Below, piece after piece: positions 8,516-24,914 of a DNA stretch of 64,000 nt. The stretch lies in the NCBI GenBank assembly GCA_016868585.1, contig VGGR01000003.1:1-64000 (forward strand). Direction: 5' to 3'. The notes beneath the pieces were generated by a model. That model made no database searches. It saw only the letters and a program-made list of their open reading frames with translations, and was not told the DNA's origin. Position numbers and translations under genes: made by a program. Numbering within the stretch: the first letter of the stretch is position 1; the number at the start of each line of letters is the position of its first letter. Source of the DNA: Bacteroidota bacterium. Its GTDB lineage: Bacteria > Bacteroidota > Bacteroidia > Chitinophagales > Chitinophagaceae.

Positions 8516-9025
8516 CTACTCGACTATTTTTGCCTGACAGGCGGCAATGCCTTCTTTTGCGCCTTTTTTATACATTTTGAGTGCTTCTTTTTCGTTGCCC
8601 AGCTTTTCATAAGAGTGGCCTAGGAAAAAAAGAAGTTCGCTGTTTTTCTTTTGTTCATAAGAAAGCTTAAAACAGTCAAGCGCGGGTTGAAACAATCCCG
8701 AATAATAATAACTCTTGCCGAGGTATTCATAAAAGGAGGCCTCCTCTGGCTCTAGATAGTCAAACGGAAAAAGCAGCTGATTGACCCCCGTGTAATCTTT
8801 CTGTTCCAGCAACCTTTTTGCTTTTACCAGTATGGTGTCGCGTTTTTGTTTCCACTCCTTCAATCCCTGTTCGCGTAGTGCTGCGTTGGGGTCTATCTCC
8901 GTATCGCGGAGCGCCTGGTATTTCATTACCCCTTGTGTTAGGTTTGGTTTAAAGTCTTGTCCAAAAACATTCGCTTGTATTAAGAACAAAAAAGAGAGCG
9001 TAAAAAAAAGCAGTCCTTTGTTCAT
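8516..9025 (-). CDS. Exported small TPR protein
   Basis: This 169-residue protein has a signal peptide (about 1-22, ending VFGQ). The C-terminal half contains tandem tetratricopeptide-like helices: FYEYLGKSYYYSGLFQPALDC, then ELLFFLGHSYEKLGNEKEAL and KMYKKGAKEG. Such repeats bind partner proteins; none can be named. It converges on the sialidase gene with a gap of 37 bases. The function is unknown. Confidence 0.75.
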   Translation of the reverse strand: MNKGLLFFTLSFLFLIQANVFGQDFKPNLTQGVMKYQALRDTEIDPNAALREQGLKEWKQKRDTILVKAKRLLEQKDYTGVNQLLFPFDYLEPEEASFYEYLGKSYYYSGLFQPALDCFKLSYEQKKNSELLFFLGHSYEKLGNEKEALKMYKKGAKEGIAACQAKIVE

Positions 9026-9090
9026 GTTAATAAATTTATAGGAAAGTTAGGTTATTTTGGTGCGTAACGCTTTGTTAGCTTTTAACCCGT

Positions 9091-9882
9091 ATGTGTGTAG
9101 ATATTGGATATAACTCTATGTTGGCGGCAGACGGCTTGCCCCGCTATATTCCTAAAATTAAAATTAACCGAGACCTGGTTAATGCGGATCACAACAGGCC
9201 CCATATTGCCGCTTACGAAAACCCCTCGTGTTTTGTGTTGGTTAATTATGGGGGTGATGTTTGTGTGGAGCGGTTTTTTTGGGGTATAGTTCCTGGTTTT
9301 AAAACCCCCACTCCTTTGTATAACGCCCGAAGCGAAAAGGTATTATTGCGTGATTCTTTTTGGTATTCATTAAAAGAACACAGATGTTTATTGCTTGCCG
9401 ATGGTGTTTATGAGCACCAACAGCGTGTTGGGGTTAAAAAAAAGATTCCTTATTATATCAGACTAAAGAGCGGTGAGCCTTTGTTGATTCCTGCTCTTTT
9501 TTCCTTTGCTTCTTTGTCGTTTAGTATTCTTACGCGTTCTGCCAACGACGTGTTCAGGGAAATACATAATTCTGGGCCCAATAAGCACAGGATGCCGCTT
9601 CTTTGTCCTATGGAACGGGCGCTACGGTGGTTACAAAAAGATTTAAAACAAGAGGAGTTGGTTGATTTTATTGGTTACCTGCTCCCGGATCAACAATTGA
9701 GCTATCACACCGTTTTTTCAATTCGTGGTAAAAAAGAGAGACCTGATGGATTAAAAGAAAACGATTTTTTTGATTGGGGTCAGTCTGGTTTTTTGGAACA
9801 GGCTTCGCTTTTTTTATTTATACTCCTGCCTGGTTGCTTATTTCCAACATTCTTTCTATTGGTTTTTTTGCGGCAACCCTAA
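9091..9882 (+). CDS. SRAP-domain protein (YedK/HMCES family) with an unusual hydrophobic tail
   Basis: SRAP proteins form a covalent thiazolidine crosslink with abasic sites in single-stranded DNA and protect them. Met1 is followed directly by the essential Cys2, which fixes the start. Family residues are present: Asn78 in NARSEKV, Glu108 in ADGVYEH and His166 in KHRMP (usual form HDRMP). The fold ends near residue 235. The remaining tail, about 236-263, is strongly hydrophobic and its last 21 codons are antisense to the end of nadA, so it probably arose by loss of an earlier stop codon. Confidence in the family is high, and low that the tail has a role. Confidence 0.88.
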
Positions 9883-10816
9883 TTGTTTCTTCCATTAATA
9901 TTTCGGGCTTTTCGTTTACCAAACAAGTATATATTTTTTCAAGCGTGTTTAGTTTCATGTGCGGACAATCATTGCAGGCGCAGCTGTTGTTTGGTGGGGC
10001 AGGAATAAATGTTTTTTGGGGTGAGTTTTTGATCATTTGGTGTAATATCCCCGACTCTGTTGCCACAATATAGGTGCCGCCCGAATCCGATTGGCTAAAT
10101 TTTAATAATTCTGTGGTAGACCCAACCATATCTGCAATGCTTAAAATTTTTTCTTCGCACTCCGGGTGTGCAATTAGTTTTGCTGTGGGATATCTTGTTT
10201 TTAGCTTGCTAATTTTTTCTAAACTAAATATTTCGTGTACCATACAGGTCCCGTTCCAAAGAAGCATTGATCGCCCTGTTATTTTGTTAATATAAGCTCC
10301 TAAATTTTTATCAGGAGCAAAAATCAATGGTTGTTCTTTGGGAAAACTTTCAACAATTTTTTTTGCATTTGAGCTAGTACAAATAACATCGCTCAGGGCT
10401 TTAATTTCTGCACTGCAGTTTATATAACTAATAATCAAATGGTCGGAATGTTTTTCTTTAAATTTTTTAAATAATGCGGGGGGGCAACTATCGCTTAACG
10501 AGCACCCTGCATTTAAATCGGGTAATAAAATCTTTCTGCTGGGGTTTAAAATTTTTGCTGTTTCTGCCATAAAATGTACTCCCGCAAAAACAATAATTTC
10601 CGCATCCGTTTTTTGGGCTTCTCTGGCTAAACCTAAACTATCCCCTATATATTCCGCAATATCTTGAATATCTGACTCCTGATAGTAGTGTGCTAAGACA
10701 ACTGCATTTTTCTGCTTTTTAATTTTTTTTATTTCTTCGAATAGATCCAGAGTAGGATCTATTAAAATCTCTACATATCCTTTTTGTTTGATTTCTATTT
10801 CTTGTGCCTGAATCAT
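9818..10816 (-). CDS. nadA: Quinolinate synthase NadA
   Basis: NadA condenses iminoaspartate with dihydroxyacetone phosphate to give quinolinate, the start of de novo NAD synthesis, using a [4Fe-4S] cluster. The protein (332 residues) begins its domain with [10 protein letters not shown] (about 42-51). Cluster-ligand regions are [13 protein letters not shown] (Cys105), WNGTCMVHE (Cys191) and [10 protein letters not shown] (Cys281/Cys284). Length is typical. No nadB or nadC lies alongside. The 3-prime end overlaps the SRAP gene by 65 bases, tail to tail. A one-mismatch -7 box (GACTTTTG) is present on the minus strand at 10832-10839. Confidence 0.95.
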
Positions 10817-11350
10817 TTTTTCTATTGATTACAAAAGTCTGTTCAAAAAAAGGATATATAAAATCATTTTTTTAGGATTTATTCTTCTTATAGTATTATA
10901 TAATATTCTATTTATTTATAAATTATCTATTATTATTATTACTGTGGAAATGTTAATAAAAAAAAATATTGATTTTTTAAACAAAACTCTTTAGTAATAA
11001 ATCAAGGAATAATAAAATTAATTATTGATTTTCAGCCTTTTAATTATTTAAGACCCGGTGTTTTATTTTTCCTGATTGTTTTTTACTAATTTTTTTGGTG
11101 TTGATTTTACGTGAAAAGTTTTTGGTTTATCAACCCTAAACACCGGAAATGAAAAAAAAGACAAAGATTTTAACAGACTTTATAGACCGGGTTTAACGTT
11201 TCACGGGGGTTTATTAACAAAAAAAATACAGAAACCAACAGGGGCTGTGCATAAAAAAAACAGATTCGTTTTTAACCCGGCCTCCCGCATAAACCAGAAT
11301 TTTCCACAGTTTTTCCCCTATTTTTGCCATCCTCTTAAAGCAGGACAACA
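10817..11350. other. AT-rich gene-free segment with DnaA-box matches and inverted repeats (possible origin)
   Basis: This is the longest non-coding gap in the window. 10830-11040 is extremely AT-rich and includes the palindrome TATTATATAATA. Matches to the DnaA box TTWTNCACA: TTATGCACA on the minus strand (11246-11254), TTTTCCACA on the plus strand (11300-11308), and a one-mismatch ATTTCCACA on the minus strand (10943-10951). Nested inverted repeats are CCGGTGTTT (11055-11063) with AAACACCGG (11138-11146), CGTGAAA (11110-11116) with TTTCACG (11199-11205), and CCGGGTT (11187-11193) with AACCCGG (11274-11280). An unwinding element beside boxes is the architecture of oriC, but clustering is modest and the base-skew direction argues against it. 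It also holds the promoters of both flanking genes. Confidence 0.35.
11319..11326 (+). promoter_or_regulatory. -7 box for the parvulin-type isomerase gene
   Basis: TATTTTTG fits TAnnTTTG and lies 24 bases before the ATG at 11351. The DnaA-box match TTTTCCACA at 11300-11308 lies just upstream, so a protein bound there could affect this promoter. Confidence 0.55.
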
Positions 11351-13465
11351 ATGTCTATTATTCAAGATATCAGGGATAAATACGCAAAACTCACGGTTGT
11401 GCTTGTTGCTCTCGCGCTTCTGGGGTTTATTCTTACCGATTATTTTTCTGGCAAAAGCAGAGCGAGCGGAAATGTTGCCATCACTATCGGATCCGTTAAC
11501 GGTAACACCATTGGTTTTGAAGAATTTAATCAAAAAGTTATCCAGGCAGAGGAAAACCTAAAAACTCAGGGATACTCCCAGGGCGCTGCGCTGACTCAAC
11601 AAGCACTAGAGCAGGCCTGGAATCAGGAAATTGGACAACTTTTACTAAAAGAAGAACTTAAGGCACTGGGTGTAAGCGTAGGCAAGAAAGAATTAGCCGA
11701 TCTGCTTTATGGCCCGGGAGCCCCCCAGGACCTTCAAAACCAATTTAAGGACCCCCAAACCGGCGTGTTTAACCCCGCCCTTGCCAAACAAAACATAGAC
11801 CAGGCACTAAAAAGCGGAACGCCCGAACAAAAAACAAATATTGTCAACTACATCGATGCGCTGGCAAATATGCGCATGGCCGACAAATATCTCACACTGT
11901 TTTCTAACAGCATCAACTTTCCTCGATGGATCATTGAAAAACAAAACGCAGAAAACAGTCAACTAGCCCGCCTTTCGTTTGTTAGAGAATTATATACCTC
12001 GGTTCCAGACAGCGCAGTAAAAATTAGCAACGAGGAAATCAAGGACTATATCAACAAGAACAAAACACAGTTCAAACAACAAGAAAGCCGCACGATCCAG
12101 TATGTTGTTTTTGGCGCCTCCCCCTCCGCAGCAGACAGCGCCGCAGCACTTTCCTCGCTCAACAACCAAAAGGAAAGATTTGCTTCTTCAGACAATGTTG
12201 AGCGGTTTTTAGCCGGCGAGGGCGCCCCTTATTATAATGGTTATATAAACGGAAAATCCATCCAGCAAGCAGTAAAAGACTCTTTGTTTGGGCTTGCCCC
12301 GGGAGCAACCTTTGGACCATACCTTGAGGCCGACCGATTTTTGATTGCCAGAATGGTTGGCGTTACCCGTATGCCCGATACGGTTAGTATAAGGCATATA
12401 TTAATAAGCACACAAAACCGTGATTCAGCAACAGCATATAACCTATGTGATAGTCTTCAAAAAGCAATTGCGGGCGGGACAAGCTTCGACTCGTTAACCG
12501 CAAAGTTTTCGGATGATCCCGGAAGCAAAAACACGGGCGGTAAGTACGAAAATGTTTCTTCCGGACAAATGGTGGCTCCGTTCAACGACTTTATTTTCTT
12601 AAAATCCACGGGCGCAAAAGGGATTGTAAAAACTGATTTTGGTTTTCACTACATAGAAATTCTTTCTCAGAAGGGCGGCGGCAGCGGATACAAAATTGCT
12701 TATCTGCCACAGGAGATCGTAGCGAGTCAAGAAACCGACAACCTTGCGTTAAATAAGGCCAACGAGTTTGCGGGAGACAGCAAAGACCTTAAATCTTTCA
12801 ACGCTAATTACGAGAAAAAACTAAAAACACAGGGTGTTGTAAAAAGTGTTGCAACAGATATAAGCCCCATTTCTTATGAGGTTCGCGGGGTTGGCGCCTC
12901 CCGTAGTTTTGTTCGTGCTATTTACGAAGCTGAAATGGGCGATGTTTTAAAACCCGAGCGTATAGACAATAATTATATCGTAGCTGTTGTAACAGAAGCA
13001 AACAAGGAAGGAACAACAAGCGTGGAAACAGCCCGCCTTACTGTTGATCCGGTTCTTAGAAACAAGAAAAAGGCCGAACTTCTTAGTAAGAAAATCGGAA
13101 CCATTACAACACTTGAAGCCGCGGCAAGCGCGTTGGGCGGAAAACAAATCGAGACCATAGACAGCATAAGGTTTGCGGGATCGTTTTCTTTTGGATACGA
13201 ACCGCGCGTGGCGGGAGCCGCATTTAACATGGCCAATAAAGGAAAGGTGGTTTCTGCTGCAATCGAGGGGCTGAGTGGAGTTTTTGTGGTAAGAGTTGAC
13301 AATATTGGCAGCACGCCCGTTTTGGACGGCGATGTGGTTTCTCTGCGGGAATCCCGATATCAACAAGCCAAGCAGGCTTATGCCAACCAGTACAGCCCCA
13401 ACAATCCGGTATCTATTTTAAGAAGCGCGGCAACCATTAAAGATCGCCGCCAGGAAAGATATTGA
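11351..13465 (+). CDS. PpiD/SurA-like periplasmic peptidyl-prolyl isomerase
   Basis: This 704-residue protein has one N-terminal membrane anchor (about 15-32, LTVVLVALALLGFILTDYF) and a large periplasmic part. A SurA_N-type chaperone region (VNGNTIGFEEFNQKV, then LGVSVGKKELADLLYG) comes first. A parvulin rotamase domain follows at about 340-440, with VSIRHILIST, FDSLTAKFSDDPGSKNTGG and DFGFHYIEIL. Proteins of this layout help outer-membrane and exported proteins to fold. The ATG follows a well-placed -7 box. The DUF2480 gene starts 12 bases after its stop and is probably co-transcribed. Confidence 0.9.
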   Translation: MSIIQDIRDKYAKLTVVLVALALLGFILTDYFSGKSRASGNVAITIGSVNGNTIGFEEFNQKVIQAEENLKTQGYSQGAALTQQALEQAWNQEIGQLLLKEELKALGVSVGKKELADLLYGPGAPQDLQNQFKDPQTGVFNPALAKQNIDQALKSGTPEQKTNIVNYIDALANMRMADKYLTLFSNSINFPRWIIEKQNAENSQLARLSFVRELYTSVPDSAVKISNEEIKDYINKNKTQFKQQESRTIQYVVFGASPSAADSAAALSSLNNQKERFASSDNVERFLAGEGAPYYNGYINGKSIQQAVKDSLFGLAPGATFGPYLEADRFLIARMVGVTRMPDTVSIRHILISTQNRDSATAYNLCDSLQKAIAGGTSFDSLTAKFSDDPGSKNTGGKYENVSSGQMVAPFNDFIFLKSTGAKGIVKTDFGFHYIEILSQKGGGSGYKIAYLPQEIVASQETDNLALNKANEFAGDSKDLKSFNANYEKKLKTQGVVKSVATDISPISYEVRGVGASRSFVRAIYEAEMGDVLKPERIDNNYIVAVVTEANKEGTTSVETARLTVDPVLRNKKKAELLSKKIGTITTLEAAASALGGKQIETIDSIRFAGSFSFGYEPRVAGAAFNMANKGKVVSAAIEGLSGVFVVRVDNIGSTPVLDGDVVSLRESRYQQAKQAYANQYSPNNPVSILRSAATIKDRRQERY

Positions 13466-13477
13466 TAAACCCAACCC

Positions 13478-13993
13478 ATGGCTGAGCTTGTAAACAAGGT
13501 TGCAGAAAGCGGACTCATCACCATTGATCTTGAAGATTGGTTCCCCAAAGGAGAGATAACAGTATTTGATCTAAAGGACTATCTTTTCATGGGAATGATT
13601 GTAAAAGAAAAGGAGTTTAGAGAATCTTTAAAAAACACCGACTGGGAGAATTTCAGAGATAAGATGGTTTCCATTATTTGTTCGGCAGATGCAATTATCC
13701 CAAGCTGGGCTTTTATGTTGGTGGCGGCTTATTTACAGCCGGTTTGTAAAGAGATGGCACTTGCAAACCCCGAAGAATTACGCAAACAGGTTTTTATTCG
13801 AAACATTCAATCCATCAACCCCGCCGATTATAAAGACCAGCGCGTTATTATAAAAGGTTGTGGGGACACACCCATTGGTGATTATGCTTATTTGGAAGCA
13901 ACACGAATACTTCGTCCGGTTGTTCGAACATTAATGTTTGGTGAACCCTGCAGCACCGTTCCGGTATATAAAAGACAACGCGCAAACCAATAA
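13478..13993 (+). CDS. DUF2480 family protein
   Basis: This 171-residue cytoplasmic protein belongs to a family of unknown function that I know only from Bacteroidota. Recognisable features are the N-terminal ITIDLEDWFP, then FDLKDYLFMGMIVKEKEFRE, and the C-terminal LRPVVRTLMFGEPCSTVPVY. The central GCGDTPIGDYAY has Cys and acidic residues that could bind a metal or cofactor, which is a guess. No signal peptide or membrane segment is present. It follows the isomerase gene by 12 bases. Confidence 0.75.
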   Translation: MAELVNKVAESGLITIDLEDWFPKGEITVFDLKDYLFMGMIVKEKEFRESLKNTDWENFRDKMVSIICSADAIIPSWAFMLVAAYLQPVCKEMALANPEELRKQVFIRNIQSINPADYKDQRVIIKGCGDTPIGDYAYLEATRILRPVVRTLMFGEPCSTVPVYKRQRANQ

Positions 13994-14380
13994 CCACTCT
14001 TGTTCATAACTTATTCACATTAGACTTCTAATGGCCAATTGCTATAAATAGCAATTTAACTTACACTCACTTTACTAACCCGTGCAAGCAATTTCGGCTA
14101 CTCATTCTTACCGACTTGTTCTTTCAACAAGTATTGGCGACTTGCGTAAAGTCGCCGTATCTGGACAAAAAGCGTTTTTTGCCGGACGCCATTTTAGCGC
14201 CAGCGAATTGCTTACCCCTTTTCATCCCACCTCTGAGTGGGGCATAAGCCAACCATATGTTTGTAACTATCGCAGCCAACAGTGTTTGGGGATGATTCGG
14301 GGCGCCAGGCATTTGAGTGAGCAACAAGCCACCGATTATCGCTTAAACCGCCACATAGTGGATAAAAGAAATTTAAAGGG
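13994..14380. other. Leader-like gap with three consecutive stem-loops before the ATP-grasp operon
   Basis: This 387-base stretch holds three perfect hairpins within 120 bases: AATTGCTAT/ATAGCAATT (14037-14056, 9 bp), ACTTGTT/AACAAGT (14114-14132, 7 bp, loop CTTTC) and GGCGACTT/AAGTCGCC (14136-14156, 8 bp, loop GCGTA). A DnaA-box match TTATTCACA is at 14011-14019. A plus-strand frame starting GTG at 14082 runs to TGA at 14384 and overlaps the next ATG in the 4-base ATGA manner; its 100-residue peptide matches nothing I know, and its first 25 codons are the hairpins. I favour a structured 5-prime leader over a gene. No clear -7 box was found. Confidence 0.45.
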
Positions 14381-15523
14381 ATGAACCCGATAGTTATTAA
14401 AAACCTTGCTGCACAGTTTAAGGTCTGGGTTTTAGCCCCACATCTTGAAACCAATGATCTCAATCTTGCCCACTATTATGATTTTACACACAGCATTCAA
14501 GAGTATACGCGAGTTTTTGCGGAATTAAACATCGAGTGGGAGTGGGTTCCGGTAACCATGAAGGGTTTCGGAAAAACAATAGAAAAAATTAACAACTCAA
14601 CGCATGCCAAAAAAGCGCTGGTGTTGAACCTTTGTGATGGCGACGAAGTGAACGGAACTCCGGGGGTTTCTGTTATTGATGAACTGGAAAAGCACCAGCT
14701 TGTTTATACAGGAGCGGATCGTCATTTTTACACCATCACCACCTCTAAAATTCCAATGAAGAAGGCCTTTGATAGGTTGGGTGTGCCAAATTCGCCCTGG
14801 CGAATAATTTCCGGAAAGCCGGGATCCATTCGCGGAATTTGCCAACGCGTTGGGGCACCCCTTATATTAAAACCGGCTGTATCGGGTGGAAGCATGGGTG
14901 TTTCTGTTAAAAATGTTGTTCATTCCGAACAGGAATTAAAAAGCAGATTAGGCGAATTAGCAGAGGGATATCGGGGTTGGAATCTTCAGGCCGATGGATT
15001 ATTTGTGGAACGTTTTATAAACGGACCCGAGTTCACCACCTTCATTACGGGCTCATCCGACGACCCGGAAAATTGCAAAGTGTATGTTCCGGTAGAAAGG
15101 CACTTTCATCCATCGCTGCCCGAGGTCGAGCGCTTTTTGTCTTTTGACCGATTATGGGAAATCTACGAAACGGAAACGCCCATGCCGGGGAATGAAAATT
15201 TTTACGAATATGCTCCGGCACCAGAATCTCTCCGGACAGGGTTGGCCCTGCTTAGTAAAAAGGCATACCTCGCGCTGGGGGGAAAGGGGTATACGAGAAT
15301 TGATATTCGGCAAGACGCCCAATCCGGAAAACTATATGTGCTTGAGGCAAACGCACAGTGTGGGTTAAGTGAAGACGAAGACTATACTTCAATTGGGGCC
15401 ATTCTCAAAGCCTCAGGAGTTTCCTATACGCAGGTAATTTTTGAAATCTTGCAAGATGCTATCCGGCGTCACGCCAAAAACTTACTGGCTGAAAAGAAAA
15501 GAAAAACAAAAGCAGTATTGTGA
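14381..15523 (+). CDS. ATP-grasp ligase, D-Ala-D-Ala-ligase-like
   Basis: This 380-residue ATP-grasp enzyme ligates a carboxylate to an amine through an acyl-phosphate. Seen: LILKPAVSGGSMGVSVK (about 161-177, the nucleotide-binding lysine and glycine loop), VERFINGPEF (about 209-218), YTRIDIR (about 304-310) and VLEANAQCGLSED (about 320-332, metal ligands Glu and Asn). The N-terminal part with LVLNLCDGDE and HQLVYTGAD resembles Ddl. It is unlikely to be the cell-wall Ddl because it is paired with a second ATP-grasp-SET protein overlapping by 4 bases, not with mur genes. It probably makes a dipeptide-like bond in a small molecule or on a protein. Substrates are unknown. Confidence 0.8.
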   Translation: MNPIVIKNLAAQFKVWVLAPHLETNDLNLAHYYDFTHSIQEYTRVFAELNIEWEWVPVTMKGFGKTIEKINNSTHAKKALVLNLCDGDEVNGTPGVSVIDELEKHQLVYTGADRHFYTITTSKIPMKKAFDRLGVPNSPWRIISGKPGSIRGICQRVGAPLILKPAVSGGSMGVSVKNVVHSEQELKSRLGELAEGYRGWNLQADGLFVERFINGPEFTTFITGSSDDPENCKVYVPVERHFHPSLPEVERFLSFDRLWEIYETETPMPGNENFYEYAPAPESLRTGLALLSKKAYLALGGKGYTRIDIRQDAQSGKLYVLEANAQCGLSEDEDYTSIGAILKASGVSYTQVIFEILQDAIRRHAKNLLAEKKRKTKAVL

Positions 15524-16947
15524 AGGTTTGTGTTCTTCAGCCCGATTATTCAACCACAACGGTAGATTATAAATATTATGATCCGCCAAGAAATCTTTCT
15601 TCGCTGCTCCCCCACGCTAAGGTAGACCACGTGTTTTTAAATAAGCTAACCACCTATAAACAACTCAAAGAATTATCAAAACAGGGGTACGACATATTTG
15701 TAAACCTTTGCGAAGGATATCCCGAGTGGGAGGTCCCCGGAGTTGATGTTGTTTACTCGCTAGAAACTCTAAACCTTCCATTCACCGGGCCGACCTCAGC
15801 CACCTATGATTTACCCAAGGCACTATTAAAGTATGTGGCTTATTGCGAAGACGTTCCCACGCCGGCATATGCGCTTTTAGAAAAGGAAGAAGACTTACAA
15901 ACCATCCCCGCAGAATTAAGGTTTCCGCTTTTTATCAAACCCGCACACGCGGGCGATAGTCTTGGGGTTAACGAAGAGTCCCTCGCAAACAACAGGAATG
16001 GGCTTGAAAAGAAATGCAAGGAGTTATTCCCGCTTTATGGTAACGTATTGGTAGAACAATATATCGAAGGCCGGGAGTTTACCGTGTTGATCGCGGCAAA
16101 CCAAGACGGCAAGAGTTGTACCAGCTATAAACCCGTTGAATATATTTTTCCTTCGGGCAAATCCTTTAAAACCTATTCTTTAAAAACATCCGAACTACAC
16201 CCAAGCGCCAATATTCCATGTGGTGATGTTGCGCTGGAAACCAAGCTCCGAACAGCAAGCGAAAAAATATTCAAAACAGCAAGCGGGCAGGGATATGGCA
16301 GGCTGGACTTTCGTGTAGATAAAGAAGGAAATATATTTTTTTTAGAGATGAACCTTACCTGTTCTGTTTTTTATACAGATGGATACGAGGGGTCTGCTGA
16401 TTTTATTTTAAAATATGACCCCGTTGGTCAATCGGGGTTCTTGCAACATATCATCGCAGAAGGAATGGCGCGACATGCCAGAAAACAACGGCCATTTTAT
16501 ATGAAAGGCAATTCCATCGCGGGGTATGGAATTTATGCAAAACAAACGCTACAGCCACTGCAGGTTGTTTTCGTTGGGGAAGGCCGATCGCAGCGACTTA
16601 TTACAAAAAGAGAAGTAGATCAAAACTGGAACGAGGAAGAGAAATTTCTTTTTCGCCGATATGCATATCCGATTAGTGACGAGGTTTATATTTTGTGGGA
16701 TAACAATCCGGCAGACTGGGCCCCACAGAATCACAGCTGTGATGCAAACACGGTGTTTGATGGTCTTAATGTAATTACCACACGAATGGTTGCCGCACAC
16801 GAAGAGCTAACGCTTGACTATGCCAACCTTCTTGATGCAAATACGGAGTCTTTTATTTGTGGCTGTGGGTCCCCGATGTGTAGAGGAAAAATCGAAGGAA
16901 CAAAAAACAATACAGTTACCACAAGAGAACAAAAAAAGAAACGCTAG
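15520..16947 (+). CDS. ATP-grasp ligase fused to a SET-domain methyltransferase
   Basis: A 475-residue two-domain protein. Residues 1 to about 315 form an ATP-grasp domain like that of the preceding gene: FVNLCEGYPEWEVPGVDVVY (60-79), FPLFIKPAHAGDSLGV (about 135-150), VEQYIEGREF (178-187), YGRLDFRVD (259-267) and the metal ligands Glu276/Asn278 in FLEMNLT. Residues about 325-465 are a SET lysine-methyltransferase domain: GYGIYAKQTL (335-344), the signature NHSCDANT (404-411), EELTLDYA (428-435), and a post-SET zinc motif with Cys447, Cys449 and Cys454. Start GTG overlaps the previous stop in GTGA, so translation is coupled. A bacterial SET domain joined to a ligase suggests one substrate both ligated and N-methylated; the target is unknown. 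Confidence 0.88.
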   Translation: MKVCVLQPDYSTTTVDYKYYDPPRNLSSLLPHAKVDHVFLNKLTTYKQLKELSKQGYDIFVNLCEGYPEWEVPGVDVVYSLETLNLPFTGPTSATYDLPKALLKYVAYCEDVPTPAYALLEKEEDLQTIPAELRFPLFIKPAHAGDSLGVNEESLANNRNGLEKKCKELFPLYGNVLVEQYIEGREFTVLIAANQDGKSCTSYKPVEYIFPSGKSFKTYSLKTSELHPSANIPCGDVALETKLRTASEKIFKTASGQGYGRLDFRVDKEGNIFFLEMNLTCSVFYTDGYEGSADFILKYDPVGQSGFLQHIIAEGMARHARKQRPFYMKGNSIAGYGIYAKQTLQPLQVVFVGEGRSQRLITKREVDQNWNEEEKFLFRRYAYPISDEVYILWDNNPADWAPQNHSCDANTVFDGLNVITTRMVAAHEELTLDYANLLDANTESFICGCGSPMCRGKIEGTKNNTVTTREQKKKR

Positions 16948-16950
16948 TCT

Positions 16951-18813
16951 TTAACGCCCCATGTACACCATTAGAATCTGCACGTCGCTTGGGTTGATTC
17001 CCGAAATTCTACTTGCTTGACCCAGCGTTCGGGGTTTGACCCTCATTAGTTTTTCTCTTGCCTCATTTCCAAGCGAGGAAATCTTTTTATAGTCAAAGCC
17101 GTCAGGAATTTCAAGCTCTTCAAGTTGTTTCATTCGTTGTACCAACCCCCTTTCTTTTTCGATATAAACCTCATACTTAATCTGTACACCCGCCTGCTCA
17201 ATACTCTCCTTATCAAAATTTCCAAGTGCGCGGTTAATAGAATCAACCACACGCACCATGTCAAAAATTTCAATATCGGGGCGCAATAAAACCTTCTGTG
17301 CTTTTTGTTTTTCAACAATAGGCGCGGTGTGTAGTGTGGCAAACCAATCGTTCACTTCGGAAGGTTCTAAAAACAAAGAGTTGAATATTTTTTTGATTTC
17401 GTCTATCTCAGCTTGTTTTTTCTGAACACGACTCATGCGTTCTTGAGAGGCGAGGCCTATTTTATGGCTTAGTTCGGTTAGCCGTAGATCTGCATTATCC
17501 TGCCTCAACAAGGTTCTAAACTCGGCACGCGATGTAAACATTCGATAAGGTTCCTGTGTTCCCTTTCCGACCAGATCATCAATCAACACACCAATATACG
17601 CCTCGCTTCTCTTTAATATCAAACCCTCTTGGTCTTTTGCCGCCCGATGTGCATTTATTCCGGCCATCAGACCCTGGCAGGCCGCCTCCTCATACCCTGT
17701 TGTTCCATTTATTTGTCCCGCAAAGAACAGGTTGTTCAATATTCTGGTTTCAAGGGTATAATGTAACTGAGTTGGTGGGAAATAGTCGTATTCTATTGCG
17801 TATCCAGGCCTAAAGATTCTAACATTTTCAAAACCACATATATTACGAAGCGCCTCGTACTGCGTTTCTTCTGGTAATGACGTAGAAAACCCATTCAAAT
17901 AGACTTCAACCGTATTCCACCCCTCCGGCTCAACAAAAAGCTGATGACGATCTCTTTCAGCAAAGCGATTAATCTTATCCTCGATGCTGGGGCAGTAGCG
18001 CGGCCCAACCCCATCAATTCTTCCCGCAAACATCGGGCTTCTGTCAAAGCCGGTTTTTAAAACATCGTGGACAACCCCGTTGGTGTACGCTATCCAGCAA
18101 CTCCTTTGTTTTTTTGGCTTTTCGGTATCTAAAAACGAAAAACCTGTTATTTCCGTGTCCCCGGGCTGTTCTTCCATTTTTGAATAATCCAGGCTTCTTC
18201 CGTCAATTCTTGGAGGGGTGCCTGTTTTTAGCCTATCACTTTCAAACCCTTGATTTACAAGTTGTTCTGTAATTCCCGTTGATGCCTTTTCGGCCATTCT
18301 TCCACCCCCAAAGTTTTTTTCTCCTATATGTAACACCCCATTTAAAAAAGTTCCGTTGGTTAAGACAACAGATTTTGCCCTGATCTCATGCCCCAGTCCG
18401 GTTTTGACACCAAAACACATGCGGTCTTTTATAAGCAGCTCAGCGACCATATCTTGATAAAAATCAAGATTGGGGGTGTTTTCAAGCAATTCTCTCCATT
18501 TGAGATGAAACAACATCCTGTCGTTTTGGGCACGAGGGCTCCACATGGCAGGGCCCTTGCTACGGTTTAGCATTCTAAACTGTATTGTGGATAGGTCGGT
18601 AACTATACCAGAATAACCCCCCATTGCATCTACTTCCCTTACAATTTGCCCCTTTGCAATACCGCCCATGGCCGGGTTACAGCTCATTTGGGCAATTGTC
18701 TGCAAATTCATGGTAATTAACAGGGTGCGAGAACCCAGGTTTGCGGCAGCTGCAGCAGCCTCACAACCAGCGTGTCCAGCCCCAACCACTATAACGTCGT
18801 ATTCTTTAAACAC
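16951..18813 (-). CDS. mnmG: tRNA uridine-5-carboxymethylaminomethyl enzyme MnmG
   Basis: MnmG (GidA), with MnmE, installs the carboxymethylaminomethyl group at wobble U34 of several tRNAs using FAD, NADH and a folate donor. At 620 residues it is of normal length. Features: N-terminal dinucleotide fold VVVGAGHAGCEAA (about 8-20), SCNPAMGGIAKGQ, RPGYAIEYDYFPP, LFFAGQINGTTGYEEAA and a C-terminal helical domain ending with LGQASRISGINPSDV. The start is GTG at 18811-18813; the -7 box at 18818-18825 lies only 4 bases before it, so the mRNA is probably leaderless. A parS-like palindrome is 35 bases upstream of the start. mnmG often lies near replication origins. Confidence 0.96.
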   Translation of the reverse strand: MFKEYDVIVVGAGHAGCEAAAAAANLGSRTLLITMNLQTIAQMSCNPAMGGIAKGQIVREVDAMGGYSGIVTDLSTIQFRMLNRSKGPAMWSPRAQNDRMLFHLKWRELLENTPNLDFYQDMVAELLIKDRMCFGVKTGLGHEIRAKSVVLTNGTFLNGVLHIGEKNFGGGRMAEKASTGITEQLVNQGFESDRLKTGTPPRIDGRSLDYSKMEEQPGDTEITGFSFLDTEKPKKQRSCWIAYTNGVVHDVLKTGFDRSPMFAGRIDGVGPRYCPSIEDKINRFAERDRHQLFVEPEGWNTVEVYLNGFSTSLPEETQYEALRNICGFENVRIFRPGYAIEYDYFPPTQLHYTLETRILNNLFFAGQINGTTGYEEAACQGLMAGINAHRAAKDQEGLILKRSEAYIGVLIDDLVGKGTQEPYRMFTSRAEFRTLLRQDNADLRLTELSHKIGLASQERMSRVQKKQAEIDEIKKIFNSLFLEPSEVNDWFATLHTAPIVEKQKAQKVLLRPDIEIFDMVRVVDSINRALGNFDKESIEQAGVQIKYEVYIEKERGLVQRMKQLEELEIPDGFDYKKISSLGNEAREKLMRVKPRTLGQASRISGINPSDVQILMVYMGR

Positions 18814-18817
18814 GGAG

Positions 18818-18825
18818 CAAAGATA
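18818..18825 (-). promoter_or_regulatory. -7 box of mnmG, giving a leaderless transcript
   Basis: On the minus strand TATCTTTG matches TAnnTTTG exactly. Its last G (18818) is 5 bases from the G of the GTG start at 18813. In Bacteroidota the transcription start falls about 4-6 bases after the box, so the mRNA would begin at or beside GTG without room for a ribosome-binding site. Confidence 0.55.
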
Positions 18826-18847
18826 GCCCCATATTTCCTTGAATTAT

Positions 18848-18861
18848 GTTCCACGTGGAAC
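18848..18861. promoter_or_regulatory. parS-like centromere site
   Basis: GTTCCACGTGGAAC is a perfect 14-bp palindrome. Extended to 16 bases (TGTTCCACGTGGAACG, 18847-18862) it matches the ParB/Spo0J consensus TGTTNCACGTGNAACA at every specified position except the last base. It sits in the 49-base gap between mnmG and ybeY, abutting the ybeY stop codon. parS sites usually cluster in the origin-proximal part of bacterial chromosomes. No parAB genes are in the window. Confidence 0.75.
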
Positions 18862-18862
18862 G

Positions 18863-19303
18863 CTAAACGAGGGAAATACCATATTTATTAAGGTATCGGT
18901 CTTCTTTTTCCCTCATTTTCTTGATATCCAAACTTTTTTTGTCTCTATATCCACAAAGATGAAGGGCCCCGTGAAAAACAACCCTATGAATTTCACTTTT
19001 TAGGCTTATGCCAAGTGATTTTGCATTATCCCTAACCCTGTCAACGCTTATATATATATCTGCGGTTATTAGTTTGCCTTCAGAAAGATCAAAAGTTATA
19101 ATATCGGTGGCGTAGTTGTGCCTTAGGTACCGAAGGTTAATTTTCCTTATTGACCCGTCGTCGCAGAAAATGTAATTAACCTGCTTAATTTGTTTGTTTT
19201 CTGACTTAAATAATTTTTCAATGAAGTCCTTTAGGGCCGACCGATTACCAAAACCAATCGAACCAGAGGGAAAGAAAAAATAAACTTTTGATTTTGAGCT
19301 CAT
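18863..19303 (-). CDS. ybeY: Endoribonuclease YbeY (16S rRNA maturation)
   Basis: YbeY is a metal-dependent endoribonuclease for 16S rRNA 3-prime maturation and ribosome quality control. I take the ATG at 19301-19303 (MSSKSKVYFF, 146 residues) rather than a longer frame upstream, because family members start close to this point. Seen: NLRYLRHNYATDIITFD (about 56-72) and the active-site HGALHLCGY (111-119). The classical motif is HGxLHLxGYDH; here the third His is replaced by the sequence RDK (Asp121), a variant I believe is common in Bacteroidota. It lies downstream of divergent feoA and upstream of mnmG on the same strand. Confidence 0.85.
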   Translation of the reverse strand: MSSKSKVYFFFPSGSIGFGNRSALKDFIEKLFKSENKQIKQVNYIFCDDGSIRKINLRYLRHNYATDIITFDLSEGKLITADIYISVDRVRDNAKSLGISLKSEIHRVVFHGALHLCGYRDKKSLDIKKMREKEDRYLNKYGISLV

Positions 19304-19342
19304 AATTATCAAAATTCGTAAAGAAAAACCACTCAACAAGGA

Positions 19343-19350
19343 TAGCTTTG
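19343..19350 (+). promoter_or_regulatory. -7 box of feoA with adjacent inverted repeat
   Basis: TAGCTTTG matches TAnnTTTG, 18-21 bases before the candidate ATG codons at 19369 and 19372. Directly after it GCATTA and TAATGC around one T (19350-19362) form a 13-base palindrome covering the expected transcription start, a plausible operator or small leader hairpin. Confidence 0.5.
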
Positions 19351-19371
19351 CATTATTAATGCTTGTTTATG

Positions 19372-19599
19372 ATGGTTAGACTATCGGACCTTAAGCCGGG
19401 GCAGGAGGCAACGATCGAGGAGTTTGAAAGCTCAGAGCTCTTATTGAAACTCATGGAAATGGGGTGTATTCCAGGCGAAAAAATATTGGTTGAACAGGTA
19501 GCTCCGCTGGGAGACCCAATTTCGGTTTCTGTTTCCGGCTACCATCTTAGCCTAAGGAAAAACGAAGCAGAAATCATTTTGGTCAATATAAAAGACTGA
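19372..19599 (+). CDS. feoA: Ferrous iron transport protein FeoA
   Basis: This 75-residue SH3-like protein assists the FeoB Fe(II) permease. It has the family opening VRLSDLKPGQEATI, then LMEMGCIPGEKILVEQVAPLGDPISV and YHLSLRKNEAEIILV, and is of normal length. Of the two adjacent ATG codons the second (19372) gives the usual start. Unlike the common feoA-feoB operon, here nadD follows after 15 bases and feoB is 3.2 kb away on the other strand. Confidence 0.92.
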   Translation: MVRLSDLKPGQEATIEEFESSELLLKLMEMGCIPGEKILVEQVAPLGDPISVSVSGYHLSLRKNEAEIILVNIKD

Positions 19600-19614
19600 T
19601 AATCAATTATATAG

Positions 19615-20187
19615 GTGAAAATCGCTCTTTATTTTGGCTCCTTTAATCCTATTCACAACGGGCATCTGATTGTGGCTAATTACTTATTGAACCAAACAGA
19701 CGTAGAAGGGCTCTGGTTAATTGTTTCGCCTCAAAACCCAAACAAACAAGAAAACGGGTTACTAAACGAAAACCAACGTCTTCGTTTAGCAAAACTAGCC
19801 ACAGAACATGACGAACGAATTGGGGTTTCGGATATCGAATTTAATCTGCCTCGGCCTTCTTATACTATCGACACGCTTACTTGCTTGAGTGAAAAATATC
19901 CACAGCACGAGTATTCTTTGTTGATGGGTGCGGATAGTTTTCAGAACCTATACAAGTGGAAAAACGCCAATCAACTGGTGGCCAACTATCCACTATTTGT
20001 TTATCCACGACAAGGGTTTTCAATCAACAACAACATAGGCGCCCAACTCAACGGAATTGATGCACCGATGTTAAACCTTTCTGCAACCTATATTCGGCAG
20101 TGTGTTGCAAACGGAAAATCTATTCGATACATGGTTCCCGACTCGGTGCGGGAGGAAATTGAAAAAGGCGGGTATTATAAAAAATAA
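19615..20187 (+). CDS. nadD: Nicotinate-nucleotide adenylyltransferase NadD
   Basis: NadD adenylates nicotinate mononucleotide to deamido-NAD. The 190-residue protein opens with [19 protein letters not shown], the nucleotidyltransferase GxFxPxHxGH motif, and has [20 protein letters not shown] near the C-terminus, equivalent to the usual ISSTxIR adenylate motif, here SATYIR. The start is GTG at 19615, 15 bases after feoA, so both are probably one transcript. It overlaps chrA tail to tail by 13 bases. With nadA it serves the same NAD pathway. Confidence 0.95.
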
Positions 20188-21413
20188 CCCAACAGCAAAC
20201 AAATTGCAACAATTAACGGGGAAATAATTTTTGTAAAGCGCAGCAACAACACAGTACCAACCAATACCATAAAACTTACCCATCCTGTTGTGTTGTTTTC
20301 CAGCAATGAAATATCTCGCGAAATATAAAAGGTGGAGGCAATTAATATTCCCACAATGGTTGCGTTAATGCCTTCCAAGGAACGATAAACAACTGCATAT
20401 TTTTTTAGGTTGTGCCAAATGGGAAAAAAGAAAAGCACAAGAAGGGTGCCGGGTAAAAAAACAGCAAAAGTCCCAATCAAACAACCCAAGAATTGCATCC
20501 CGGGACCTTCTTTTTTTAGTGCTAATCCCCCCGTGAAAGAAGCAAAAGAAAACAAAGGACCGGGGACTGCTTGCACCAACCCCATACCCATATAAAAATC
20601 CTGTTGATCAATTTGAAGAACGTTAGGATTTTTTTCACGCACCGTGTTAGGACGAACACTCCATTGTTCGTACATCATAGGTAACAACACCTGACCTCCA
20701 CCAAAAACCAGGCTACCCAAACGATAAGTGTTCTCAAAAAGATTCAACGGTTTTCTTTCGGGCCAGTTGTGGGTGCGAGCCGTTTCGCTCAATAATCCCG
20801 CCACAAAAAAAATAATTCCAAAGAGCCAAAAATTCCACCAACGAATTTGTTTGGGCTTTTCATCGATCTGCGGAATTCGCTTACTACTAAAATTGGTTGC
20901 AATTCCTCCGGCAATCAACAAGACCGGAATCAGCCAAGGTCTTCCGAATAAAAAGACAGTTACAACAAGACCAGCACCCATGATAATCCACGTGATGGTA
21001 TTTCTAATTGCCAGCGGGAAAAGGCGAAGGATCGTAAAAACAAGAAACCCGGCCGCCATGGAAGGAATAAACCTAAACAAACCGACTCCAAATTTTTGCT
21101 GATTCAAAAAGGGAAGCAAAAACGAAAACCCACCCATAATTGTGCTGGCCGGAAAAATCCAGACCAAGAGAGTGAGCATAGCAAGAGGCACCCCTCCGCG
21201 TTTATAACCAATCAGGGTTAGGGTTTGTGTGGAGGAACCACCCGGCAACAACTGACAGAGTGTATTATATTCCATCAACTCTTTCTCGGTTACATAGGGT
21301 GTTTTATGGACAAAACTTTTAAACATCATACCCAAATGGGCCTGCGGGCCTCCAAAAGAAACAAGGCTGTGTGCAAGAACAGATCGCAAAAAAGGAAGAT
21401 GGCGAATCAGCAT
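20175..21413 (-). CDS. chrA: Chromate transporter family protein (two CHR domains)
   Basis: This 412-residue membrane protein is of the long-chain CHR family, with two homologous halves of about six helices each. N-half landmarks are [12 protein letters not shown] (about 19-30), [17 protein letters not shown] (about 49-65) and [15 protein letters not shown]. The C-half repeats them as [36 protein letters not shown] and [11 protein letters not shown]. The family exports chromate, sometimes sulfate; substrate is unproven here. The ATG is at 21411-21413; the divergent M20D gene begins 57 bases away. Confidence 0.88.
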
Positions 21414-21470
21414 GGCACCCTAAAAGTAAAAATTTATCATTGTTATTGTATTTTCACAAAAACAAGCCCC

Positions 21471-22787
21471 GTGAATAAAATAATTTTATCCTGTCTTTTT
21501 ACAGTTTCCTCTATTACGGGTAATGCACAGGTGCGTAATTCCACAGCAGACCCCAAGCCGATGGTTCATTCAAAAGCAGAACTGCTGCAGTCAAAAACCA
21601 ATAGCTGGAGAGAGCAAATACATCAAAACCCGGAATTGGGGAATCGTGAGTTTAAAACAGCAAGGCTGGTTGCCGCTCATCTGCGCTCGCTCGGAATGGA
21701 AGTACAGGAAGGCGTTGCCAAAACAGGCGTGGTTGGATTGTTAAAAGGGGAAAGGCCGGGACCCTGTGTGGCACTACGTGCAGATATGGATGGGTTGCCC
21801 GTTACCGAACGCGTAAAAATTCCCTTTGCCTCAAGTGAAAAAACAATCTACGAGGGCGCCGAAGTGGGGGTGATGCACGCATGTGGTCATGACACGCATG
21901 TGGCTATTTTGATGACTGTTGCTGAAATTCTTTCTGGCATGCGTGATCAGCTGAGCGGCTCTGTAAAGTTTATTTTTCAACCAGCAGAAGAGGGACCCCC
22001 TGCCGGTGAAGAGGGAGGAGCAGCATTGATGGTAAAAGAAGGGGTAATGGAAAACCCCAAGGTGGATGTCATATTTGGATTACATATACAATCAGGTTTA
22101 GAAGTTGGGAGGATAAAATATAAGGCCGGATCACTAATGGCAGCAGCAGACTGGTTCAATATTATTGTAAAAGGTAAAGGAAGTCATGGTTCTCAGCCCT
22201 GGCGCGGAGTGGACCCTATTCAGGTTGGTGCGCAAATCATAGAGGGTTTACAGAATATCGTTAGCCGACAATCAGAGCTCAGCAAAGCGCCAGTGGTAAT
22301 TACGGTCGGTAAAATAAAGGGGGGTGTTAGACAGAATATAATTTCTGAAACCTGCGAAATGTCTGGGACAATCCGAACACTAGATAGCAAAATGCAAGGA
22401 GACGTACATGAAAAAATAAAAAGAACCGCCAAACTAATTGCCGCTGCAAATGGTGCTGATGCGGATGTTGTTATTGAAACACAAACATTGGTAACCTATA
22501 ACACACCTGAACTGGTAAAGCAAATGGTACCAACACTGGAAAAAACATTAGGCGCAACCAATGTAACCGAAACAGAATGGGTTACCGGTGCAGAAGATTT
22601 TTCCTATTATGGAACAAAAGCTCCGGCATTCTTTTTCTTTTTGGGAGGAATGCCCAAGGGACAAGATTCTTCTCAAGCTCCGCCACACCACACATCAGAT
22701 TTTTATGTTGATAACAGCGGCATGCCAGCCGGTGTTAAAGCACTTTGTAATTTGGTGTTTGATTATTTGTCTGCCGCAGCAAAATAG
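21471..22787 (+). CDS. Exported M20D-family amidohydrolase
   Basis: This 438-residue metallo-amidohydrolase resembles N-acyl-L-amino-acid, hippurate and IAA-amino-acid hydrolases. The start is taken as GTG at 21471, which gives a signal peptide ending TGNAQ; a longer open frame upstream runs antisense through chrA and is not credible. Motifs: HQNPELGNREF, VALRADMDGLPV (Asp metal ligand), HACGHDTHVAIL (Cys-His metal site), FQPAEEGPPAGEEGG (general base Glu) and VTGAEDFSYYG near the C-terminus. It probably releases amino acids from N-acylated or conjugated forms in the periplasm. It converges on feoB with a gap of 12 bases. Confidence 0.88.
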   Translation: MNKIILSCLFTVSSITGNAQVRNSTADPKPMVHSKAELLQSKTNSWREQIHQNPELGNREFKTARLVAAHLRSLGMEVQEGVAKTGVVGLLKGERPGPCVALRADMDGLPVTERVKIPFASSEKTIYEGAEVGVMHACGHDTHVAILMTVAEILSGMRDQLSGSVKFIFQPAEEGPPAGEEGGAALMVKEGVMENPKVDVIFGLHIQSGLEVGRIKYKAGSLMAAADWFNIIVKGKGSHGSQPWRGVDPIQVGAQIIEGLQNIVSRQSELSKAPVVITVGKIKGGVRQNIISETCEMSGTIRTLDSKMQGDVHEKIKRTAKLIAAANGADADVVIETQTLVTYNTPELVKQMVPTLEKTLGATNVTETEWVTGAEDFSYYGTKAPAFFFFLGGMPKGQDSSQAPPHHTSDFYVDNSGMPAGVKALCNLVFDYLSAAAK

Positions 22788-22799
22788 ACCCGAAAAGAA

Positions 22800-24914
22800 T
22801 TAGCTGAAAATACAATAAACCATCCAGGAAAGAACCCAGGCAAGTCCGGTCATGTAGAGTAATTGGATCATCGGCCATTTCCAACTTTTGGTTTCTCTTT
22901 TCACCACGGCCAGCGTGCTCATGCATTGCATGGCAAACACGTAGAAGGTCATTAGTGAAAGTCCGGTAGCGAGGGTAAACAAGGGTGTGCCATTAGAACG
23001 AACCGCCGCTTTCATTTTTTCATTCAGCAAGGCATCATCGCGGTTGTCTCCAACACTGAACAACGTTGCCATGGTTCCAACAAAAACCTCTCTGGCCGCA
23101 AAAGAAGTGACCAGTGCAATTCCTATTCTCCAATCAAACCCAAGTGGCGAAATAGCGAACTCTAATTGTTTTCCAATTAACCCGGCGTAAGAATTTTGGA
23201 GCTTGGCCGCATGAAATTCCCTTTTTAATTGTACCGAATCGGCACCCGGAACTGCTATATAGGACTGATAACTTTTTTCAACAGCTTGCATCCGTGCACT
23301 GGGCCCGTAGGTGCTTAGCCCCCAAAGCACCAGAGAAATAATCATGATTACTTTACCCGCATCAAACATAAAAATTTTAGCCTTGCCCAACATGGTGGGC
23401 AACAGATTTCCCCAACGGGGTGAGCGATACATGGGCAGTTCAAGGATAAAGAAACCCTTTTCTTTAATCTTTATGAACAGATTGGCTATATAGGAAACCA
23501 AAAACGCAAAAACAACACCAGCCATATACAGCCCAAGTAATACCAAACCCTGCAAGCTTATTACCCCAAACAAATAATTTTTAGGGATCACCAGCGCTGT
23601 GATGGTGGTATAAACAGGCAACCTTGCCGAACAACTCATTAAAGGAGTTATTAAAATGGTAAGCAGTCTTTCTTTTCTGTTTTCGATGTTTCTAGTGCAC
23701 ATGATGGCGGGCACCGCACAAGCAAATCCGCTAATCATGTGCATTACACTTTTTCCGTTTAAACCCACGCTTCTCATTAGTCTGTCAGACAAAAAACCGA
23801 TCCTTGCCATATAGCCAGAATCTTCTAATAGGGTAATGAGCCCAAATAGTATCATGATCTGAGGAACGAAAACAAGAATTCCCCCCAACCCGGCCACAAT
23901 GCCATTTATTATTAAATCAGAAAACAATGTGTTTGGAAGCGTAGAAGAAAGCCAACCACTCAGCATCCCAAAACCCAACTCAACCAAATTCATTGGGTAT
24001 TGTGCCAGCAAAAAAACACTTTGAAATAACAAAAACAAAACTGTTAATAAAATAAGGTACCCCCAGTTACGATGCAATAGCACGGCATCCAGCCTCTCCA
24101 TTAAAAAAACCTTTTTTAATGGATCTGGTTCGGTGACAGCCAACTGCATAACCTGTTTGATCTTTGCGTATCGCTGCAATATTTCACTGGCCTGTGTTTT
24201 GGTGGGGTTGAATTGGTACTGTTTTTCAATCTCTTCAATTTTATGCTGTATGTCGGGAGCAAATCCAAAATGTTCGTGGTTGATGAGGAAATGAATGGCT
24301 TTATAATCCCCTACGCCAACAAATTCGTCCTTAATTTTTTCTATAGCAATTGCTGCCAGCGACCGATTGTCGATAAAATCGCGTATCGGTATTTTATAAG
24401 CACCATTAATGGTAAGCTCAATCGCTTTTTGAAGTGCGCCGACCCCACCCCTTTTTCTGGCATCAACGGCTACTACCGGCACCCCCAATTCTCTTTCGAG
24501 TTCTGTCGGGTTAATTCTAATTCCTTTTTGGCGCGCCAGGTCCATCATGGTAAGCGCCACCACTACCGGCAACTTCAGATCAATTAGCTGCGTACAAAAA
24601 AGTAGGTTACGTTTTAGGTTGCTGGCGTCTGCTACCACCACAATTACAGCGGGTTTTATTTCGGCATCCTCCCCCATGATCACTCGGTAGGTTACCCATT
24701 CGTCCATTCTTTTGGGATACAAACTGTAGGTTCCGGGTAGGTCGATGAAATTCACCCGGTGTTTACCTAGCTGTGCGGTTCCTGTTTTTTTATCAACAGT
24801 TACCCCGGGGAAATTTCCTACCTGTTGGCGCAGCCCCGTCAAGCGGTTAAAAAGTGAACTTTTTCCGCAGTTGGAGTTGCCCACAAGGGCAATATGATTA
24901 ATAGTGATTCCCAC
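22800..24914 (-). CDS. feoB: Ferrous iron transporter FeoB
   Basis: FeoB imports Fe(II) across the inner membrane. The start is GTG at 24912-24914: an upstream extension to 25046 is rejected because a perfect -7 box lies inside it at 24933-24940. The resulting 704 residues hold an N-terminal G domain with GNSNCGKSS (12-20, G1), FPGVTVDKKTG (G2), DLPGTYSL (G3) and TMMD at the G4 position (usual N-x-x-D, so Asn is replaced by Thr). A helical linker and a permease follow with two Gate repeats, GFLSDRLMRSVGLNGKS and ISGFACAVPAIMCTR. FeoA is encoded separately 3.2 kb away. Confidence 0.94.
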   Translation of the reverse strand: MGITINHIALVGNSNCGKSSLFNRLTGLRQQVGNFPGVTVDKKTGTAQLGKHRVNFIDLPGTYSLYPKRMDEWVTYRVIMGEDAEIKPAVIVVVADASNLKRNLLFCTQLIDLKLPVVVALTMMDLARQKGIRINPTELERELGVPVVAVDARKRGGVGALQKAIELTINGAYKIPIRDFIDNRSLAAIAIEKIKDEFVGVGDYKAIHFLINHEHFGFAPDIQHKIEEIEKQYQFNPTKTQASEILQRYAKIKQVMQLAVTEPDPLKKVFLMERLDAVLLHRNWGYLILLTVLFLLFQSVFLLAQYPMNLVELGFGMLSGWLSSTLPNTLFSDLIINGIVAGLGGILVFVPQIMILFGLITLLEDSGYMARIGFLSDRLMRSVGLNGKSVMHMISGFACAVPAIMCTRNIENRKERLLTILITPLMSCSARLPVYTTITALVIPKNYLFGVISLQGLVLLGLYMAGVVFAFLVSYIANLFIKIKEKGFFILELPMYRSPRWGNLLPTMLGKAKIFMFDAGKVIMIISLVLWGLSTYGPSARMQAVEKSYQSYIAVPGADSVQLKREFHAAKLQNSYAGLIGKQLEFAISPLGFDWRIGIALVTSFAAREVFVGTMATLFSVGDNRDDALLNEKMKAAVRSNGTPLFTLATGLSLMTFYVFAMQCMSTLAVVKRETKSWKWPMIQLLYMTGLAWVLSWMVYCIFS

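Follow-up and report, generated by a model that had tools for sequence, protein, structure and literature searches.

Introduction

The SET domain is chiefly known for methylating the lysines of proteins. We describe here two coupled genes of a Bacteroidota bacterium (family Chitinophagaceae), one encoding an ATP-grasp ligase (P1) and one an ATP-grasp-SET fusion protein (P2), that lie within the first 64,000 nucleotides of contig VGGR01000003.1 (assembly GCA_016868585.1), the stretch that was analysed and that we call the window. Several described systems resemble this pair in part. D-Ala-D-Ala ligases (Ddl), such as E. coli DdlB, share with both proteins the ATP-grasp profile, seven ATP/Mg positions and the RxD and ExN motifs, but most positions of the D-Ala pocket differ (P275, for example, is replaced by Cys), and P2 carries a SET fusion. 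TTLL12 likewise joins a SET-like domain and an ATP-grasp-type ligase in one protein; however, it is eukaryotic, its ligase is of the tubulin-tyrosine-ligase-like (TTL) and not of the Ddl type, and it reportedly does not catalyse histone methylation (PMC3520985). The MLL (KMT2) histone-lysine methyltransferases resemble P2 in the SET half, over which profile matches run from 6e-10 downward, and in the NHSC, LDY and post-SET cysteine motifs. P2, in contrast, carries an amide ligase in the same chain and belongs to a bacterial operon, and no chromatin domains were found in it. A further SET enzyme, BurB, is reported to be a methionine S-methyltransferase (PDB 9l4t) that makes S-methylmethionine from free methionine (PMC12542666). 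MysD of the mycosporine pathways (PMC11983340) and other stand-alone ATP-grasp ligases build small non-ribosomal amides, as the cassette proposed below would do. By eye, no mycosporine core gene was recognised near the pair. To our knowledge, the MysD-type stand-alone ATP-grasp pathways do without SET enzymes.

No description of an ATP-grasp-SET fusion, or of a cassette containing one, was found in literature searches that left most of the subscription literature aside, and an earlier mention is possible. A term search of the accessible text of a review on bacterial SET proteins (PMC3980110) and of a survey of ATP-grasp enzymes (PMC4431377) gave nothing on such a fusion. An earlier note on this DNA, made from the sequence alone, knew of no characterised pathway with this arrangement, and our literature searches found no characterised homologue either. 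The cassette is apparently undescribed; it is related to stand-alone ATP-grasp biosynthetic systems, and the SET enzymes are its unusual part. We suggest that the pair may have been retained as the core of a conserved cassette for the biosynthesis and export of a small molecule with amide links and methyl groups, a reading that we regard as evenly balanced between right and wrong.

Results and Discussion

P1 (380 aa, ATG start; 14381-15523, + strand) and P2 (475 aa, GTG start; 15520-16947, + strand) are open reading frames (ORFs) that overlap by 4 bases on the same strand. What the earlier note had read from the letters is borne out here: the two genes are intact and translationally coupled, and both products carry a D-Ala-D-Ala-ligase-like ATP-grasp domain, matching PF07478 with 59.8 bits (P1) and 83.7 bits (P2; 15880-16353, +) at a cut-off of 24. 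The C-terminal SET domain claimed for the second gene was found as well, with a match to PF00856 of 29.4 bits (cut-off 22.4) over residues 335-434 (16522-16821, +). Its motifs could be located, namely NHSC at residues 404-407 (16729-16740, +), ELTLDY at residues 429-434, with Tyr434, the Tyr of LDY, at 16819-16821 (+), and the post-SET cysteines C447, C449 and C454 within 16858-16881 (+). The description as a two-gene operon stands in so far as the pair is real and coupled; it was incomplete, since the remnant of a third gene, c1, overlaps the start of the first. Compared with three close relatives, the P1 and P2 of the window have ratios of nonsynonymous to synonymous substitution rates (dN/dS) of 0.04-0.07, rough figures at a dS near or above 1 (~0.9-1.8). 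These low ratios, together with full-length orthologues in 31 of 248 genomes of the order, argue that the pair is not a chance arrangement.

The ligase domains were compared in alignments of P1 (n=51) and P2 (n=69) with E. coli DdlB, whose numbering is used, and with the Ddl of the source genome itself. The 69 loci compared comprise 52 with a near and 17 with a divergent P2 and include near copies (the window with L002-L004, and nine loci of one genus). K144, E180, E187, R255, D257, E270 and N272, which we take to be the ATP/Mg binding positions of DdlB, are invariant in 51/51 P1 and 69/69 P2, and the ligase domains contain the RxD and ExN motifs, as in Ddl; K97 is Arg in all 17 divergent P2. 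None of the P1 and P2 sequences keeps H63, Y216 or P275; in place of P275 all have Cys, and in place of Y216 P1 has Trp, near P2 Thr and divergent P2 Trp. Of the residues that presumably bind D-Ala (E15, S150 and Y216), S150 is Gly in 51/51 P1 and Asp in 52/52 near P2, while divergent P2 have Ala (13/17) or Ser (4/17). At E15, Glu is found in 7/51 P1, in a gappy stretch of the alignment, and in no P2. Because the ATP/Mg residues are invariant while most D-Ala pocket positions differ, P1 and P2 look like active ligases, with a predicted substrate other than D-Ala.

One could still imagine a cell-wall variant, in which peptidoglycan would receive an altered D-Ala-D-X dipeptide made by the pair. 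In profile comparisons both ATP-grasp domains indeed find D-Ala-D-Ala ligases as their closest solved relatives, and Glu is kept at E68 of DdlB in 50/51 P1. We nevertheless consider this explanation very improbable, given the pocket replacements described above (E15 is lost from 44/51 P1 and from all P2) and a separate canonical Ddl in the source genome that keeps E15, S150, Y216, H63 and P275. Moreover, the best NCBIfam Ddl scores of the pair (78.4 and 95.9 bits) are far under the cut-offs (243 and 245.65), and inspection of the ORFs at 8000-24000 by eye showed no mur or van gene.

Co-inheritance was followed in samples of larger groups, comprising 248 genomes of the order, 395 of the phylum and 249 of the Gemmatimonadota. 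In the order, P2 occurs in 32/248 genomes (E<=1e-30), 31 times in full length and once (G065) as the ATP-grasp part only, and P1 in 31/248 (E<=1e-60). At these cut-offs P1 and full-length P2 share an identical set of 31 genomes. P1 lies directly upstream of P2 in 51 of the 52 near-type loci, the exception being a locus without P1 (L082), and beside none of the 17 divergent P2. The search for conserved neighbourhoods that the earlier note had proposed hence finds the two genes linked. With start codons picked by a script for the gene-distance counts, the exact 4-base overlap recurs in 21 of 51 pairs; in L043 an antisense ABC-transporter ATPase gene (7643-8635) lies between P1 and P2. Among titled records, the closest P2 relatives are in Bacteroidetes/Sphingobacteriales assemblies, from lake or groundwater to judge by the isolate names, with 91, 86 and 86% identity, followed by three more at 64% and by one in a Gemmatimonadetes record at 53%. 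In the phylum sample, 17/395 genomes match P2 (E<=1e-25). Five of these had been counted before, one matches at 53%, and the other 11 are divergent (34-39%) and come mainly from a single genus, which supplies nine of them. The Gemmatimonadota contribute 26/249 matches, 18 at 50-55% and eight at 32-37%. The loci compared from this group represent 14 of the 18 near and six of the eight divergent matches, plus L008 (genome G624, one of the 18).

A SET-only gene and transporter genes accompany the pair in many of these genomes. c1, a stand-alone SET-domain gene with a near-invariant FFYPSxEW motif (n=38), is found in 30/248 order genomes (E<=1e-15), among them 27 of the 31 pair genomes versus 3 of the 217 others, one of the three weak (Fisher p ~1.3e-28). 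In 24 of the 27 it is intact within the cluster, in the window it is a remnant, and in two (G113, G135) it is remote. SET domains of any kind occur in 191/248 order genomes. In a quick tree of 135 SET sequences, built on few columns, c1, the small SET proteins (c1s), near P2, divergent P2 and 20 background SETs each fall on one side of a branch, with supports of 90, 100, 95, 48 (low) and 91. Therefore, the linkage concerns the c1-type subtype and not SET domains at large. PF13748, a transporter membrane protein, has matches in 18/248 order genomes (E<=1e-20), 14 of them among the 31 pair genomes and four among the 217 others (p ~2e-11), and by coordinates it lies directly beside P2 in 14/14; for one of the 31, G209, the adjacency of c1 and PF13748 was likewise read from coordinates. 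The order P1-P2-PF13748-c1 is found in two loci, L123 of the Gemmatimonadota and L058 of the order sample, and P1-P2-PF13748 in one further Gemmatimonadota locus; overall, the 15 near loci of this phylum have PF13748 in two and c1 in one. In three of these 15 (L124-126; Pfam-checked in L126), the next called gene upstream on the same strand is of the MATE type. The genus with the divergent fusion has c1, P2, a full ABC exporter and a SET protein of ~120 aa in this order. Seven of its loci show the whole arrangement, and the remaining two are truncated by the ends of contigs. Judged by these neighbourhoods, the predicted cassette is larger than two genes, with the SET-only gene and the transporter genes belonging to it in many relatives. 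The earlier note had left the choice between a small metabolite and a protein side chain as target; since SET-only and transporter genes are linked to the pair in many relatives, a small exported molecule is favoured over a side chain.

The same chemistry could also yield an intracellular metabolite, for example an osmolyte or a cofactor-like betaine or sulfonium peptide, with no export and with transporters as incidental neighbours. This would suit the 17 of 31 pair genomes, the window's included, that have no PF13748 match at E<=1e-20. The constant adjacency of PF13748 to P2 where it occurs with the pair, and the ABC exporter of the divergent genus, speak against it, and we think it rather unlikely. 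A further possibility that the neighbourhoods bear on is a graspetide-like pathway for a ribosomally synthesized and post-translationally modified peptide (RiPP), in which the ATP-grasps crosslink and the SETs methylate a short ribosomal peptide. ATP-grasp ligases, a methyltransferase and an exporter are the general shape of graspetide-like clusters. However, no short ORF conserved across lineages was found in the 69 loci within 400 bp up- or downstream or in the gap between P2 and PF13748, a scan that left out the c1-P1 and P1-P2 gaps. The clusters of short ORFs that did appear do not extend beyond close relatives, and their positions suggest that they are fragments or alternative frames of the genes next to them. 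In addition, the ATP-grasps belong by profile to PF07478, and up to E 0.1 none of them hits RimK. We regard a RiPP pathway as improbable.

In the window itself the cassette has been reduced. The c1 remnant (14082-14384, +), recognised by comparison with L002, L003 and L004, is cut to 100 aa, and its stop codon overlaps the ATG of P1 by 4 bases; intact c1 has 164 aa at the same place in these three loci. DNA alignment with them places the junction of a 192-bp in-frame deletion, by which the NHSC core of c1 was lost, at 14209/14210 (+). Beyond the deletion, conserved residues are altered as well, with PFH in place of FFY and Tyr in place of C127. PF00856 matches the intact c1 of L002 (43.2 bits) and L004 (38.7 bits) and has no match in the remnant. 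With the same caution about high dS, the rough dN/dS of the window's c1 is 0.16-0.28, compared with 0.07-0.13 among the three intact copies. The only SET match in the source genome is that of P2, and PF13748 gives no match in it at E<=1e-20. From the deletion and changes in c1, its raised dN/dS, the low dN/dS of P1 and P2, the single SET match and the lack of a PF13748 match we infer that the window carries a reduced version of the cassette, in which c1 is apparently decaying and the ligase pair is probably still under selection. A separate locus of the window's genus (L141, genome G233) still has a PF13748 gene, one closely related to the G081 gene, with P1, P2 and c1 unmatched, which would fit a piece-by-piece loss of the cassette within this genus. 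c1-type SET genes were also seen in genomes that have no P1 or P2 match, at L175-L177 (G041, with two copies, and G128), where the neighbours gave no clear clue.

What the SET enzymes might act on was approached through their relatives. Among solved proteins the c1 profile finds BurB first, with E 5e-15, and the next at 9e-10 (110 positions aligned). Both share the His of HSC, the Tyr124 position and a C-terminal IxGA; of the SAM and substrate contacts of BurB, H93 and Y124 are kept, and R42 and A44 fall outside the aligned stretch. BurB differs in lacking the FFYPSxEW motif of c1, and in the accessible text of its report no ATP-grasp ligase is mentioned with it (PMC12542666). According to the same text, the Y124F variant of BurB keeps >60% activity (PMC12542666). 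By analogy, this argues that a SET enzyme of the c1/BurB branch can act on a small molecule and tolerate Phe at the Tyr position. In P2, W400, P402, H405, C407, F445, C447, C449 and C454 are invariant in 69/69 sequences, and Y434 is Tyr in 65/69 and Phe in 4/69. Set beside the activity of BurB Y124F, the four Phe variants are in line with a small-molecule function. P2 scores above the Pfam gathering cut-off for SET and has the NHSC, LDY and post-SET cysteine motifs, so that it is predicted to be a methyltransferase. The earlier note took lysine amino groups as the target of SET domains, a premise that is too narrow, since the closest solved relative of c1 S-methylates methionine (PMC12542666).

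What leads us to a short biosynthesis-export pathway is a set of co-inherited and often coupled parts: a pair of Ddl-like ligases, between one and three SET domains and, in some genomes, an exporter. P1 and the ATP-grasp half of P2 would each turn a carboxylate and ATP into an acyl phosphate and join an amine to it, so that two amide bonds would form. Methyl groups from S-adenosylmethionine would be transferred by the SET half of P2, and by c1 in most relatives, to an amine or thioether, either of the product or of one of its building blocks, the enzymes presumably working on a shared substrate. Conceivably, a building block is methylated, ligation and a second methylation follow, and an exporter (PF13748, a full ABC exporter or MATE, depending on the lineage, and present in part of the relatives) ships the product out. 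An N- or S-methylated, amide-linked and peptide-like small molecule is most likely the product. It is possible, though we would sooner expect otherwise, that the cassette stands for a new class of exported small molecules that is independent of the ribosome and of nonribosomal peptide synthetases and common to Bacteroidota and Gemmatimonadota, with paired Ddl-like ligases, dedicated SET enzymes, a fusion that couples amide formation to methylation and possibly sulfonium or betaine peptides as products. The cassette is compact, with two to four genes. If our reading is true, a conserved family of SET and amide-ligase proteins with SET-only partners and exporters would widen the use of bacterial SET enzymes in small-molecule chemistry, for which BurB is the one case that we met in this analysis, and would give annotators a reason against calling bacterial SET genes histone methyltransferases.

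Several observations weigh against the small-molecule cassette. Some ligase pockets retain Ddl-like residues, namely Ser at S150 in part of the divergent P2 and Glu at E15 and E68 in P1. c1 differs from BurB at H72, S88, R133 and H138, four of six checkable contacts, and its acceptor therefore need not be methionine. The SET profile of P2 scores histone methyltransferases and BurB alike (41.7 versus 40.4 bits). c1 is absent from 4/31 pair genomes and from 14/15 near and 6/6 divergent Gemmatimonadota loci, the pair of the window has no exporter gene next to it, and 17 of the 31 pair genomes of the order have no PF13748 match. Structure prediction, which the earlier note had suggested for both active sites, gave two models (mean pLDDT of 53 and 51) that were too poor to read the SET pocket; Foldseek with the poor fusion model again returned Ddl among the 50 matches listed, at 13-24% identity. 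Finally, in one genome (G446; L084 4541-10292) a divergent fusion is followed, after a gap of ~440 bp and on the same strand, by an FGase, a MATCAP-family peptidase (PF08014) and a GshB-like ATP-grasp, a single case that could point to peptide synthesis or tagging.

Part of this evidence fits protein modification, our main rival explanation, in which the ATP-grasps attach amino acids to a cellular protein, at its end or on a side chain, and the SETs methylate its lysines. The equal closeness of the P2 SET half to MLL-type histone methyltransferases and to BurB and the G446 neighbourhood keep it in play, and P2 has NHSC and LDY with few exceptions and the post-SET cysteines without any. On the other hand, SET, transporter and housekeeping genes are what recurs next to the pair, no candidate for a substrate protein was recognised as recurring in the loci compared, and the pair is linked to exporters. 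Ddl-type ATP-grasps join small amino acids, and the solved protein closest to c1 is a methyltransferase that acts on a free amino acid. On balance we judge protein modification unlikely, yet the foremost alternative to the biosynthesis-and-export cassette.

Genomic surroundings

The source genome has 1.77 Mb in 20 contigs and is 99.4% complete. In the window a DUF2480 gene lies upstream of the cassette, and a convergent mnmG-like gene, identified by eye, lies downstream of P2. Scans for promoter-like (6 versus 6.3 in shuffles) and terminator-like sites (9 versus 3.9 expected) were not used as support. A mobile-element origin of the cassette was considered and rejected: P2 at 80% coverage was found neither in plasmids (436 partial matches) nor in phages (14 partial matches), viral contigs gave no P2 relative in a search reaching close relatives only, and the GC content of the cassette region is about that of its surroundings. 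In eight of the 15 near Gemmatimonadota loci (L121-L134, L008) there is a large gene of ~1000-1500 aa, mostly on the opposite strand; by eye it is possibly an M14-type zinc carboxypeptidase, and its presence may be plain synteny. Elsewhere in the window, an ORF at 7270-8478 resembles an exo-alpha-sialidase, as judged by eye from its sequence.

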